From: Alistipes sp.
Lineage (GTDB): Bacteria > Bacteroidota > Bacteroidia > Bacteroidales > Rikenellaceae
Reading direction: 5' to 3'
DNA length: 64,000 nt
Assembly (NCBI GenBank): GCA_017631275.1
Contig: JAGBTQ010000010.1
Span: 1 to 64,000 of the forward strand
A program made the position numbers and the translations under genes. Under the pieces are notes generated by a model that saw nothing but the letters and a program-made list of their open reading frames with translations, had not been told where the DNA came from and ran no database searches. This document shows, one piece after another, positions 11,413 to 55,392 of this stretch. The stretch's first letter is position 1. Each line of letters opens with the position of its first letter.

Positions 11413-12039
11413 ATGAAGAAGAGTCTCTATATACTCATCGTGGCAGTGGTTGTGGCACTTGTCCCCACCACCGCCTCGGCGCAGTTCAACCTATCACGCC
11501 TCTTGGGTGGCTTGTCAAAGGTTGCCAGTGCCCAGACCGAGAAGGAGGACCCCTACCAGCGCTTGGCGGAGGCAGCACCCTCTGCCTCTACGCTCAATGG
11601 CAACTGGACCTACCAGTCGGCATCGTTCAGCTACCTTGGCCAGAACCCCTTGGCAGATATCGCCATCGCGCAGATCGACCCTATTGTAGCATCTATGCTC
11701 CAGCAGCTTAAGATCACGCCAGGCTCTGCTAAGCTACGCCTTAGCGGTGGCAAGGGCACCATCACCCATGGCGACCACAAGCTCGATGGTAGCTATGTCT
11801 ATACACGCTCTAAGGCATCTGTTGTTGCCCAGACAACCCTCGATGGCAAGACCGTTAAGGCCTCGGGATATGTGCGCTACGCCTCAGGCGAGCTCACCAT
11901 CATGCTCGATGCTCGCGAGCTTATCTCCGCCATGACCACCCTCATGCCTGAGCTCAAAAGCGACCAGAATATCCTTTTGGTCGAGACCCTCATTAAGGAT
12001 TTGAAGGATGTATATATAGTAGGCAAATTCACCAAGTAA
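11413..12039 (+). CDS. DUF4923 lipocalin-like exported protein, copy 2
   Basis: A 208-aa paralogue of the preceding gene. Signal peptide with cleavage near TTASAQF (about residue 24). The conserved core starts at LNGNWTYQSASFSY, followed by GKGTITHGDHKLDGSYVY and the terminal strand YIVGKFTK. The stop codon TAA (12037-12039) is also the first three bases of a compound inverted-repeat element, which probably ends the transcript of the pair. Periplasmic or outer-membrane-associated location is inferred from the signal peptide only. Confidence 0.8.
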   Translation: MKKSLYILIVAVVVALVPTTASAQFNLSRLLGGLSKVASAQTEKEDPYQRLAEAAPSASTLNGNWTYQSASFSYLGQNPLADIAIAQIDPIVASMLQQLKITPGSAKLRLSGGKGTITHGDHKLDGSYVYTRSKASVVAQTTLDGKTVKASGYVRYASGELTIMLDARELISAMTTLMPELKSDQNILLVETLIKDLKDVYIVGKFTK

Positions 12040-12169
12040 TTTGTTGTGATAAGGGGTCATCTTCGACCTATCCCAAAAAGCTGAGCACCCGAGGCTGTAC
12101 GTTTGAGTACTATCCTCGGGTGCTCACTTTTGCGATAAGCCAAATCTGACCCCTTCTGACAACAAATTA
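12037..12169. repeat. Stop-codon-abutting compound inverted-repeat element, copy 1
   Basis: Outer arms TAATTTGTTGT (12037-12047) and ACAACAAATTA (12159-12169) pair perfectly. After a small internal loop they are extended by AAGGGGTC (12051-12058) with GACCCCTT. Inside, GAGCACCCGAGG (12083-12094) pairs with CCTCGGGTGCTC (12114-12125), with an apical GTAC-GTTTGA-GTAC. The first three bases are the stop codon of the upstream gene. Related copies: 41272-41403, 49707-49836 and 55329-55392. Confidence 0.85.
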
Positions 12170-12172
12170 GTG

Positions 12173-12348
12173 CGCTGATTGAGGTGGAATTTATGGGGAT
12201 AATAGGGTAAATAGGGAAAATGGGGTTGTGATACCCTCGCCTTATCTTCCCTATCTTCCCTATCTTCCCTAATCTCCCTATTCTCCCTATCTATCCCAAT
12301 CGTCCTATTCTCCCTATCTTGCCTCTCTCACCTCTCACCTCTCACTTT
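12173..12348. repeat. CGCTGATTGAGGTGG linker, family II array and family I repeats
   Basis: CGCTGATTGAGGTGG (12173-12187) follows the compound element. It recurs exactly after copy 3 (49843-49857) and with one change at 44142-44156. Then come GATAATAGGGTAAATAGGG units, the 20-base core GGGTTGTGATACCCTCGCCT (12223-12242), CTTCCCTATCTTCCC units, and finally CTCACTTTTCACCTTTC (family I) up to the ispD stop. This space lies between convergent genes. Confidence 0.8.
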
Positions 12349-41271: not shown

Positions 41272-41403
41272 GAATTTGTTGTGATAAGGGGTCGATTGCG
41301 TCCCCTAACAAAAAATGCCACCAATGGGACGTACGTCAAGTACTACCCATCGGTGGCATTTTTGCCGAGTGTAGCACTCGGCGCCCTTCTGACAACAAAT
41401 TTC
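41272..41403. repeat. Stop-codon-abutting compound inverted-repeat element, copy 2
   Basis: Outer arms GAATTTGTTGTGATAAGGG (from 41272) and CCCTTCTGACAACAAATTTC (to 41403). Inside: AAAAATGCCACCAATGGG (41311-41328) with CCCATCGGTGGCATTTTT (41346-41363), whose tip is GTAC-GTCAA-GTAC; then GCCGAGTG-TAG-CACTCGGC (41364-41382). The first inner hairpin ends in T on both strands, so it can terminate in either direction, suiting convergent ssb and the biotin carboxyltransferase gene. AAATTTGCCGTG at 41261-41272 looks like a partial duplicate of the left end. Confidence 0.88.
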
Positions 41404-44059: not shown

Positions 44060-44121
44060 AAAAGAGAGAAATTTGTTGCGACTTGCTACATATTGCAACT
44101 TCTCGCAACAAATTTCTCTCT
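44057..44121 (-). terminator. Large bidirectional-looking terminator of the M64 gene
   Basis: AGAGAGAAATTTGTTGCGA (44063-44081) pairs perfectly over 19 bp with 44103-44121, with a 21-nt loop. On the minus strand seven T follow (complement of 44057-44063). The arm sequence AAATTTGTTG also opens the compound elements at 12037 and 41272, so this may be a simplified member of that family. Confidence 0.88.
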
Positions 44122-44127
44122 GTTTTA

Positions 44128-48822: not shown

Positions 48823-49719
48823 ATGGCTCTCTCACGACAGACAATAAAGACCATAGTTATGCCCCTGGCAATGGTTGTGGGCGCAATGTTGTGCCGCCCC
48901 TTGGCCCATGTCGAGGCGGCTAGTGCCAACTTGCTCACCCCCATGCTTATCGCCTCGATGCTCTTTCTCACGTTTTGCCGTATCGACCTACGCGACCTGC
49001 GCCTTAGGTGGGTGCACCTCATAATGCTTGCGGTGCAGATTGTGGGAGGTGTTGTGGTATATGTTGCTCTACGCCCTTTGCTTGGTGAGGTTGTGGCACA
49101 GGGAGCTATGATGTGTGTGCTTGCCCCTATAGCTATGGCTGCCGTAGTCATCGGCGGTATGCTCGGCGCTAAGGTGGCACCCATGGTGTCGTATAGCCTC
49201 ATTTGCAACATAGTGACAGCCATTGTCCTACCGCCCATTCTCCACGCCTTTGGCAATGGCACATGCACCTTTGTGGAGATTATCTCGCGCGTAGCACCCA
49301 CGCTCATAGCCCCCTTTGTTGTGGCTCAGCTGTTGCGCTACACGCTACCTAAGGTGGCTAAGTGGTTTGCCAACCACTCCTCTTACTCCTTCTACCTGTG
49401 GCTTTTCTCGCTCGTGCTGGTCATGGGGCGCACCACAGCATTTATTATAGACACTCCTGCCGACATCGTTGTCGAGATAGAGCTTGCCCTTGTTGCCCTT
49501 CTCTTGTGTCTTGCGCAGTTTAGGCTCGGTAGATATATCGGTGAGCGCTCAGGCGATAGGGTGGCGGGAGCGCAGTCGGTGGGTCAGAAGAATACTATTC
49601 TTGCTATTTGGCTCACGCTCAACTTCCTTAACCCCATAGCCTCTATTGCCCCCACAGCCTATATCGTATGGCAGAATTTTGTGAATAGTTATCAAATCTA
49701 CCGCAAGAATTTGTCGTGA
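48823..49719 (+). CDS. Bile acid:sodium symporter (BASS/SBF) family transporter
   Basis: Inner-membrane protein of 298 aa with about nine or ten hydrophobic segments. The opening PLAMVVGAMLCRPLA and the middle CVLAPIAMAAVVIGGMLG and SYSLICNIVTAIVLPPIL resemble SBF-family carriers. Near the end, QKNTILAIWLTLNFLNPIASIAPTAY contains the conserved N-x-x-L-A region. Substrates in bacteria vary (bile acids, pantoate, other organic anions) and cannot be read from sequence. The last three residues, N-L-S, and the TGA stop are encoded inside the left end of a compound inverted-repeat element, so the C-terminus has been shaped by that element. Confidence 0.88.
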   Translation: MALSRQTIKTIVMPLAMVVGAMLCRPLAHVEAASANLLTPMLIASMLFLTFCRIDLRDLRLRWVHLIMLAVQIVGGVVVYVALRPLLGEVVAQGAMMCVLAPIAMAAVVIGGMLGAKVAPMVSYSLICNIVTAIVLPPILHAFGNGTCTFVEIISRVAPTLIAPFVVAQLLRYTLPKVAKWFANHSSYSFYLWLFSLVLVMGRTTAFIIDTPADIVVEIELALVALLLCLAQFRLGRYIGERSGDRVAGAQSVGQKNTILAIWLTLNFLNPIASIAPTAYIVWQNFVNSYQIYRKNLS

Positions 49720-49836
49720 TAAGGGGTCGATTGCGTCCCCTAACAAAAAATCCCGACAATGAGCAGTACTTCGAGTACAGCCCATCGTCGGGATTTTTGC
49801 CGAGTGTAGCACTCGGCACCCTTCTGACGACAAATT
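49707..49836. repeat. Stop-codon-abutting compound inverted-repeat element, copy 3
   Basis: Outer arms GAATTTGTCGTGATAAGGGG (from 49707) and ACCCTTCTGACGACAAATT (to 49836). Relative to copies 1 and 2 both arms changed together (TTGTTGTGA/TGACAACAA to TTGTCGTGA/TGACGACAA), a compensatory change. Inside: AAAAAATCCCGAC (49745-49757) with GTCGGGATTTTT (49787-49798), tip GTAC-TTCGA-GTAC, then GCCGAGTG-TAG-CACTCGGC (49799-49817), identical to copy 2. The element begins inside the coding end of the BASS gene. Confidence 0.9.
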
Positions 49837-49842
49837 ATTTCT

Positions 49843-49995
49843 CGCTGATTGAGGTGGTAGATTAAGGAGTTTAGTGAATTTAATGAATTTAGGGAGTTTA
49901 GTGATAGTCTTTCCCTAAGTTCCCTAAATTCCCTAAATTCCTTATTCTCCCTATCTTCCCTATTCTCCCTGCCGTCCTTGCCGTCCCTGCTCTCC
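49843..49995. repeat. CGCTGATTGAGGTGG linker and complementary repeat array
   Basis: The linker (49843-49857) is followed by TTAAGGAGTTTAGTGAATT units, then TTCCCTAAATTCCCTAAATT and CTCCCTATCTTCCC units. It sits between convergent genes. The unit types match 3036-3180. Confidence 0.75.
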
Positions 49996-53540: not shown

Positions 53541-55331
53541 ATGAAGAATATTCGCAATTTCTGTATTATTGCACACATCGACCACGGCAAGAGTACCCTT
53601 GCTGATAGACTCCTCGAAAAGACTAACACGCTGAACCAGCGCGAGATGCAGGCTCAGGTGCTCGACGATATGGATCTCGAGCGCGAGAAGGGTATTACAA
53701 TCAAGAGCCACGCCATTCAGATGGAGTATAAGGCTCGTAATGGCGAGCAATATACACTCAACCTTATCGACACCCCAGGACACGTTGACTTCTCTTACGA
53801 GGTGTCGCGAGCTATCGCCTCGTGCGAGGGCGCACTGCTTGTTGTCGATTCAACACAGGGTATTCAGGCGCAGACCATCTCTAACCTCTATCTTGCCCTC
53901 GGTCAGGATCTTGAGATTATCCCCGTACTAAATAAGATTGACTGCGAGTCGGCTATGGTCGATGAGGTCAAGGATCAGATTATCGACCTTATAGGCTGTA
54001 AGGACGAGGATATCTTGTTGGCATCGGGCAAGACAGGCCAGGGCGTCGAGGATATTTTGGAGGCTATTATTGAGCGCATTCCAGCTCCTAAGGGCGACCC
54101 TGAAGCACCTCTCCAGGCCCTTATCTTCGACTCGGTGTTCAACCCATTCCGTGGCGTTATCGCCTACTTCCGTGTATTCAACGGCACTATCCATAAGGGC
54201 GAGCATGTTAAGTTTTTCAACACTGGCAGCGAGTACGATGCCGACGAGATTGGTGTTTTGAAGCTTAAGATGGTTGCGCGCAACGAGATTAAGGCGGGCG
54301 ACGTAGGTTATATCTGCTCGGGTATCAAGAACTCGACAGACGTGAAGGTGGGTGATACCATCACCTCGGTGGCAAATGCTGCTACGGAGGCTATCGCCGG
54401 CTTCGAGGATGTTAAGCCTATGGTCTTTGCGGGTGTCTATCCCGTTGAGGCCGACCAGTATGAGGATTTGCGTGCCTCGCTCGAGAAGCTTAAGCTCAAC
54501 GATGCGTCGCTCACGTTCGAGCCTGAGAGCTCGCTTGCCCTCGGCTTCGGCTTCCGCTGTGGCTTCCTCGGCTTGTTGCACATGGAGATTATCCAGGAGC
54601 GCCTATATCGCGAGTTCGACATGGACGTTATCACCACCGTGCCTAACGTGTCGTACCACATCACAACTACGCAGGGCGAGGAGCTCGAGGTGCACAACCC
54701 CTCGGGACTACCAGAGATTACTAAGGTGGCAAAGATTGAGGAGCCATATATCCTTGCGCAGATTATCACCAAGGCTGACTTCCTCGGCAACGTCCTTAAG
54801 CTATGTATCGATAAGCGTGGTGTGATGAAAAACCAGACCTTCATCACGCAGGATCGCGTTGAGGTTAACTTCGAGATGCCTCTCTCGGAGATTGTCTTCG
54901 ACTTCTACGATAAGCTCAAGAGCATCTCTAAGGGCTACGCCTCGTTCGACTACCACCGCACGGGCTACCAGATTTCGAAGCTTGCGAAGCTTGATATTCT
55001 GCTCAATGGCGAGCCTGTCGATGCCCTCTCGTCACTTATCTATGCCGACCATGCCTACGACTTCGGCCGTAAGATGTGCGAGAAGCTAAAGGAGCTTATC
55101 CCACGCCAGCAGTTCGACATCGCTATCCAGGCGGCTATCGGCGCTAAGATTATCGCTCGTGAGACTGTTAAGGCTGTGCGTAAGGACGTTACGGCGAAGT
55201 GTTATGGCGGTGATATCTCGCGTAAGCGTAAGCTGTTGGAGAAGCAGAAGGCGGGTAAGAAGCGTATGCGTCAGATTGGCTCAGTACAAGTTCCGCAGTC
55301 TGCCTTCCTTGCAGTTCTCAAAATGGACTAA
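53541..55331 (+). CDS. lepA: Elongation factor 4 (LepA)
   Basis: Ribosome-associated translational GTPase of 596 aa, normal length. G1 is [17 protein letters not shown] at residues 9-25, G3 is [12 protein letters not shown] near 80 and G4 is NKID near 133. Domains II, III and V follow, and the C-terminal domain unique to LepA (about 490-596) is basic, ending [20 protein letters not shown]. It is monocistronic by appearance. Its stop codon TAA is the first three bases of the fourth compound element. Confidence 0.97.
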
Positions 55332-55392
55332 ATTTGTTGTGATAAGGGCGCATCTTCGGCACCAAGCTCACTGCCCCTTCTAACAAGAAATT
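55329..55392. repeat. Stop-codon-abutting inverted-repeat element, copy 4 (compact)
   Basis: TAAATTTGTTGTGATAAGGG (55329-55348) against CCCCTTCTAACAAGAAATT (about 55374-55392). It is half the size of the other copies: the large inner hairpin is missing and only CATCTTCG, also present in copy 1, remains. The arms are less perfect (AACAAGAAATT), suggesting decay. Confidence 0.75.

Follow-up and report, generated by a model that had tools for sequence, protein, structure and literature searches.

Why should a repeated palindrome begin, copy after copy, just where a gene stops, and which of its strands is the one that folds? The question is raised by bases 1-64000 of contig 5 of an Alistipes sp. 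genome (1.92 Mb in 32 contigs, 87.5% complete), a stretch of 64,000 bases called the window below, in which an earlier note had described four copies of a compound inverted-repeat element beside gene ends; the four lie where it placed them to within a base or two. They belong to a dispersed family that is tied to the stop codon as such, not to gene ends in general. Judged from alignments and predicted folds, it is chiefly the strand antisense to the preceding gene whose pairing has been conserved, with the exception of an inner variant referred to as type A. The explanation that we favour, and to which we give roughly an even chance, treats the element as a non-autonomous mobile palindrome resembling miniature inverted-repeat transposable elements (MITEs) or repetitive extragenic palindromes (REPs), recognised as its folded antisense strand, probably in single-stranded DNA (ssDNA), and often kept as the terminator of the gene that it follows. 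The antisense conservation, a hypervariable tip loop, a strand bias per contig and the existence of divergent relatives are new with respect to the earlier note.

The genome scan with a covariance model that had been proposed there (model R1) recovered at least 139 distinct copies of about 119-133 bp; the model gave 149 rows, from which 10 on the opposite strand were removed, the count is a lower bound in that 150 of 706 candidates were scored, and it leaves out the remnant that is copy 4 of the window. The copies occupy 108 sites (79 single, 27 double and 2 triple), with a single orientation within every one of the 29 tandem arrays. Copies at different genes reach 97% identity, and an exact pattern for the two ends matches the genome 64 times, its reversal not once. 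In its multiple copies, a length below 200 bp and terminal inverted repeats the family has the features of MITEs of the ERIC kind; of the earlier suggestion of a MITE-like mobile unit that targets gene ends, the single dispersed family and the signs of mobility have held up, with the stop codon taking the place of the gene end as anchor.

Anchoring was scored by taking the longest open reading frame (ORF) of 80 or more codons on the sense strand of the element, as defined by a simple open-run rule and not by a gene caller, with a stop no more than 250 nt before or 60 nt after the element start. Such an ORF precedes 103 of the 108 genome sites, and in 100 of these 103 the stop lies within -14 to +12 nt of the element start, 66 times at exactly -1; in 63 of the 66 it is a TAA built from one host T and the first AA of the element. 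A scan with the left half of the element against contigs from one genome per species returned at least 114 further stretches; the 80 among the matches listed are all labelled Alistipes sp. or Rikenellaceae bacterium and come mostly from ruminants, so that the relatives of the window appear to lie among metagenome-assembled genomes (MAGs) of these groups. A regular-expression finder identified 141 elements in these loci, 105 of them first in their array with more than 600 nt upstream; 104 of the 105 have an open run of 80 or more codons, and its stop falls within -14 to +12 in 98 of the 104 (61 at -1). For the 80 loci taken alone, 68 of 69 are anchored, 42 at -1, as against 29 of 285 control TAATTT sites within the anchoring range (20 at -1), or 29 of the 166 controls that have an ORF. 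By eye, a T precedes AATTT at most first-in-array sites, and TA is present at stops. Within the window, the first TAA of copies 1 and 4 is indeed the stop of the gene, copy 3 supplies a TGA, and copy 2 starts shortly after the stop of ssb, at a gap of 10 nt where 9 had been counted. Neither lepA nor ssb is truncated by the element, because the lepA C-terminus is identical in loci that lack it and the ssb product of the window ends in DDLPF, which we take to be its usual ending. At the lepA stop, an element or remnant is seen by eye in 11 of 30 loci of the genus, the remnant of the window included, with differing inner types.

Read on the antisense strand, the element has outer arms of 10 bp (AATTTSTTGT/ACAASAAATT), inside which a conserved asymmetric 3x3 internal loop (YAG/ATC) leads to a stem of about 9 bp. 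A GA/GA internal loop often comes next, then another stem, and the fold is capped by an apical hairpin whose tip reads GTAC-N4..6-GTAC. The inner part occurs in several sequence types, and a few copies look by eye like chimeras made of halves of different types; type A (23 of 139 copies) has three smaller hairpins in place of one long hairpin. The inner hairpin with GTAC tip attributed to the window copies is absent from copy 4, an internally deleted remnant that has neither. A reading of the GAT/CTR loop as a k-turn was dropped as the pairing does not fit.

RNAalifold, applied to the antisense strand of 26 long-hairpin copies from which type A was excluded by choice, gives 37 pairs, 22 of them doubly changed, at -40.7 kcal/mol, as opposed to 13 pairs at -4.5 kcal/mol for a separate sense-strand alignment of the same copies. 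In an alignment of 116 distinct copies from many genomes (A4, drawn from 100 loci with L031-L060 left out, fitted to the model and including no more than 2 rows of type A), pairing holds in 95.7% of cells, double changes are seen in 28 of the 37 pairs, 482 G.U cells stand against 44 A.C cells on the antisense strand, and this strand folds better in 113 of 116 copies with RNA parameters and in 116 of 116 with DNA parameters. None of 500 shuffles of this alignment reaches any observed measure of covariation, which bears out the selection on structure proposed from the four copies; the preference for gene ends and the covariation both persist with more copies, and the compensatory change noticed in both outer arms of copy 3 (GTCGT/ACGAC) is real. 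Similar values come from a MAFFT alignment of 39 diverse copies (158 G.U against 18 A.C cells; 38 of 39 better antisense; 32 of 37 pairs doubly changed) and from the 139 copies of the genome itself, of which 125 fold better antisense (mean -69.0 versus -55.8 kcal/mol), including 113 of the 116 that are not type A. Copy 1 scores 105.9 bits on the minus strand and 58.7 on the plus strand with the broader model R2, and its folding energy is -78.6 versus -64.0. As strand choice in model searches is biased toward the modelled strand, it is the lock of that strand to the gene, rather than the choice itself, that counts as an independent fact.

Read in the sense direction, most cores form a hairpin like that of a terminator, flanked on either side by A- and T-runs: by a simple rule for a GC-rich hairpin plus T-run, the resemblance to an intrinsic terminator extends to 116 of 139 copies when the sense strand is read and to 108 of 139 when the antisense strand is. 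As to the earlier idea of a compound terminator or RNA-stability element, the core is indeed terminator-like, but the element is not simply an mRNA 3'-end element because its conserved structure is mainly antisense to the gene; set beside intrinsic terminators, with which it has a core stem and T-run at a gene end in common, only its middle part fits, and conserved pairing outside the core is left over. For copy 1, the single terminator-like stem inside its inner hairpin (12083-12131) is weak on its own, given a shuffle mean of 0.5.

Could the antisense strand instead be made as RNA, the family encoding small RNAs, structured or antisense in kind, with a 3' end next to the opposing stop and a tip loop that serves copy-specific pairing? 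The surplus of G.U over A.C cells speaks for it, as does the next gene being convergent at 66 of 106 sites, and the hypervariable loops look, by analogy, like recognition loops. At the remaining 40 sites, however, the next gene is co-directional and no antisense transcript can come from a convergent neighbour; in addition, the antisense core is so often terminator-like that a full-length transcript should frequently stop midway. A full-length antisense RNA is thus unlikely to be general, which makes folded ssDNA or cruciform DNA the better guess. Copy 1 has no match to a promoter of the sigma-70 type, which is not a test for Bacteroidota promoters; the window has no Rfam match at gathering thresholds, with only 4 sub-threshold matches in 4 loci at E<=1, and no Rfam family is at hand; and right flanks are unlike between genomes by eye. 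We consider the RNA explanation unlikely, if deserving of serious attention. A Bacteroidota promoter (TAnnTTTG) in the arm was also considered and dropped, the arm reading AATTTG or AATTTC.

The strand that folds also appears to be distributed unevenly with respect to replication. Uniformity of site strand per contig reaches 67 compared with 31.8 (standard deviation 6.3) under a gene-strand null built from the genes of the window and 17 sampled stretches (0 of 20000; 12 contigs, 87 sites). By third-position GC skew, the leading strand is favoured by 66 of 87 sites versus 138 of 299 genes and, without contigs 5 and 13, which have almost no skew difference, by 64 of 72 sites versus 126 of 248 genes; because the sites favour the leading strand, the structured strand is presumed to be the leading-strand template. 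The attC bottom strands of integrons show the leading-strand-template arrangement in 25 of 30 sedentary integrons, as reported in PMC5371416.

That arrangement bears on a second alternative, by which the elements are relatives of the REPs of Bacteroidetes Y1/HUH-class enzymes (subclass 2.6), now orphaned in this genus. Strand specificity would suit HUH enzymes, and PMC6006769 describes for subclass 2.6 atypical structures beside the genes with further copies elsewhere in the genome, which could be kin of the element. The same paper, however, has IS200/IS605 members target the lagging-strand template, whereas the strand conserved here is presumably the leading-strand template; Y1_Tnp (PF01797) is found in 0 of 61 genomes of the genus, as against 5 of 14 control genomes, and a crude HUH-Y1 motif scan of 408 sequences is empty. 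Moreover, the element is about 130 bp long where REPs have 20-40 bp, and its arrays have one orientation where those of REP/BIME/REPIN systems with RAYT (TnpA-REP) alternate, although both are extragenic palindromes. A relationship to stops is not foreign to REPs: a study cited in PMC12306157 reportedly found that 260 of 496 Escherichia coli REPs, located within 15 nt of a stop codon, act by ribosome stalling, and the count of the citing paper itself places 446 of 4,072 within 15 nt of one. Taken together, this descent seems improbable to us.

Other known systems share parts of the pattern. With ERIC or RU-1, a 127-bp enterobacterial imperfect palindrome, and with the MITEs NEMIS, RUP and YPAL, the element has in common its size, dispersed copies, long hairpin and TA ends, as well as the fact that for most of them no transposase has been identified; ERIC reportedly affects neighbouring transcripts, with an outcome that depends on its orientation (PMC2229807). 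Distinctive of the present element are near-absolute stop anchoring in a fixed orientation, an antisense fold, a hypervariable loop and a usually bidirectional terminator-like core, some of which ERIC might share. With the integron attC site the element has in common, on sequence evidence, a structured bottom strand directly after a stop (type A copies excepted), but it sits behind core genes scattered over the genome, lepA and ssb among them, instead of in cassette arrays, and its ends do not match the outer boxes RYYYAAC/GTTRRRY by eye. To our knowledge, few dispersed repeats are in register with stops, and none besides attC carries its structure on the strand opposite the gene. No integron integrase (TIGR02249) exceeds the cut-off in the 61 genomes, below-cut-off matches occurring in 61 of 61 and in 14 of 14 controls, and DDE_3 likewise exceeds it in 0 of 61, with 3 weak matches. 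A full transposon with the shared ends was also sought: the exact end matches mostly pair into short copies, not all ends being paired. Group II intron retrohoming was set aside on a strand-polarity argument alone.

Searches among relatives, which for the large genome sets used stricter filters that lose weak matches, find the element in 39 of 61 genomes of the genus (own included), in 68 of 200 genomes and 3 of 22 genera of the family and, with model R2, in 22 of 393 genomes and 16 of 207 genera of the order (own included). At 28 loci from nine further Rikenellaceae genomes, the outer arms differ yet covary, 27 have their better fold on the modelled strand, and stop anchoring is seen at 19; 13 of these loci come from two other genera, with 10 anchored. 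All 19 order-level loci, 18 of them from other families, fold better on the modelled strand and 11 are anchored, so anchoring is strictest in the genus of the window, and unpaired internal loops are kept across genera by eye. One copy used as blastn query had no match among phages and none among plasmids, and a pattern scan of IMG/VR gave 0 matches. By eye, one sub-form recurs in distant Bacteroidales families, with the sequence CGTTACGCTC or similar ... GTCATTTAC-N-GTAAACTCC ... TTCGCAAGCCTTG (L392, L394, L397, L399, L401, L402, L404-L407), and seven loci (L096, L103, L106, L312, L316, L207, L215) hold related elements, several of which lie at stop codons, that have other arms or else a tip of the form CTCATTTAC/CACATAC-N-GTAAA/GTATG.

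This spread also bears on a third alternative, a host terminator or 3'-end stability element propagated by gene conversion and not by mobility, for which the terminator-like core and the sites common to different species at orthologous genes would argue. Within one genus, however, genomes range from no match found to more than 100, outer arms add nothing to a terminator, and some divergent relatives lack T-runs by eye; we find this account distinctly doubtful. Presence and absence were compared at orthologous loci as had been suggested: for one gene pair in different MAGs, L270 has a 19-nt spacer without element and L336 carries the element at the stop. Orthologous ends without element often have, by eye, an ordinary terminator soon after the stop (examples among 46 pairs); a division into 248 pairs that have the element and 298 that lack it is unreliable, as many rows of the latter hold variant elements.

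Change within the element is concentrated at the tip, where the loops of 26 type B copies have 0.485 differences per site versus 0.020 elsewhere (outer 12 columns excluded); for 20 copies chosen by a short type A apical key the values are 0.288 and 0.142, but this key mixes types and only the type B contrast is clean. Among 117 orthologous gene-end pairs (at least 80% identity) with an element on both sides, 19 element pairs are more than 85% identical and 26 less than 70%; in similar pairs with a readable tip, the loop is shared in 2 of 17 and different in 15. At one orthologous gene end, L099 and L301 differ by a whole apical stem changed on both arms around an identical loop, as expected of template switching. 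That the covariation and the matching arms are largely mutational, template switching at quasi-palindromes (supported by PMC8794818) copying arm to arm without structural selection, as this pair would suggest, is very unlikely: such switching would re-create Watson-Crick pairing whichever strand is read, so that the large excess of G.U over A.C cells would not be expected, and conserved unpaired internal loops persist across genera by eye.

If the element is the mobile palindrome that we favour, its antisense strand, folded as ssDNA or as the arm of a cruciform, would be the recognition target of an enzyme, and the asymmetric 3x3 loop would give polarity. Insertion would occur at a TA-type site, and in the interval from the last codon to the native terminator the TA of TAA or TAG is the only one that is never missing. 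Since the core would bring its own bidirectional terminator, a copy at a stop would cost little, become the terminator of the gene and be kept by selection; such retention between stop and terminator would account for closeness to the stop, and the constant TA of most stops may give the register. The hypervariable loop and the arm-wide paired changes would come from real DNA hairpins, through tip cleavage or template switching during replication.

Several points weigh against this account. No mobiliser was found in a search that covered Y1_Tnp, DDE_3 and the integron integrase but not reverse transcriptases, IS110 or other DDE families, and filled and empty sites, all compared between species, show no clean target-site duplication. 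Terminator retention alone explains neither the register (66 stops at -1) nor, with a bidirectional core, the fixed orientation, and by eye some cores in other genomes lack a T-run. Anchoring is weaker elsewhere (19 of 28 Rikenellaceae and 11 of 19 order-level loci), type A shows no asymmetry between the strands (a better antisense fold in 12 of 23, at a mean difference of -0.3 kcal/mol), and preservation of G.U is a classic sign of RNA, not DNA. Finally, strand uniformity recurs in one of five further genomes (G164, 41/41, 0 of 5000) and is not significant in the other four, in counts among the matches listed and with no correction for gene strand.

A bolder version, which we would call a long shot, makes these Bacteroidales-wide, replication-coupled ssDNA mobile elements with attC-like logic and a non-identified recombinase, targeting or marking the stops of ordinary chromosomal genes and renewing their tip loop by hairpin processing; were this true and were the enzyme also able to join a pair of these sites, every gene enclosed by the pair would amount to a movable cassette. 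A literature search recognised no published description of the family, and in that sense it is an apparently undescribed repeat of gut commensals. The family provides a test case in nature for how translation or replication can direct DNA insertion, how mutation proceeds at the tips of DNA hairpins and how a genome draws its terminators from mobile DNA.

Table. Elements, stop codons and flanking motifs in the window
Feature	Position	Strand	Remark
Copy 1	12038-12168	-	long-hairpin type B; conserved fold on minus strand, antisense to upstream gene
TAA stop of upstream ORF 11413-12039	12037-12039	+	overlaps first two bases of copy 1
Copy 1 inner GC-rich hairpin	12083-12131	+	GTAC-loop-GTAC tip plus T-run; terminator-like
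Right-flank motif TGCGCTGATTGAGGTGG (module 3)	12171-12187	+	followed by low-complexity imperfect palindrome
Copy 2	41273-41401	-	type A, three-hairpin variant; 3' of ssb
ssb stop TAA	41260-41262	+	10 nt before copy 2
Copy 3	49708-49836	-	type A variant; both outer arms changed
TGA stop of upstream ORF 48823-49719	49717-49719	+	lies within copy 3
Right-flank module 3 motif after copy 3	49841-49857	+	
Copy 4	55331-55392	-	62-bp internally deleted remnant at lepA stop; R2 E=7e-6
lepA stop TAA	55329-55331	+	overlapped by copy 4

The motif RTGCGCTGATTGAGGTGG lies 3' of elements in the window (12171-12330 and 49841-49950) and in many other right flanks; its core has 42 exact matches in the genome, 39 of which start at most 25 nt and 2 more at most 60 nt after an element. 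Imperfect palindromes of short degenerate repeats follow it, and the motif itself has the look of a left end belonging to another, degenerate element. A separate palindrome at 44072-44122, with arms AGAGAGAAATTTGTTGCGA, is possibly a remnant of the same superfamily.
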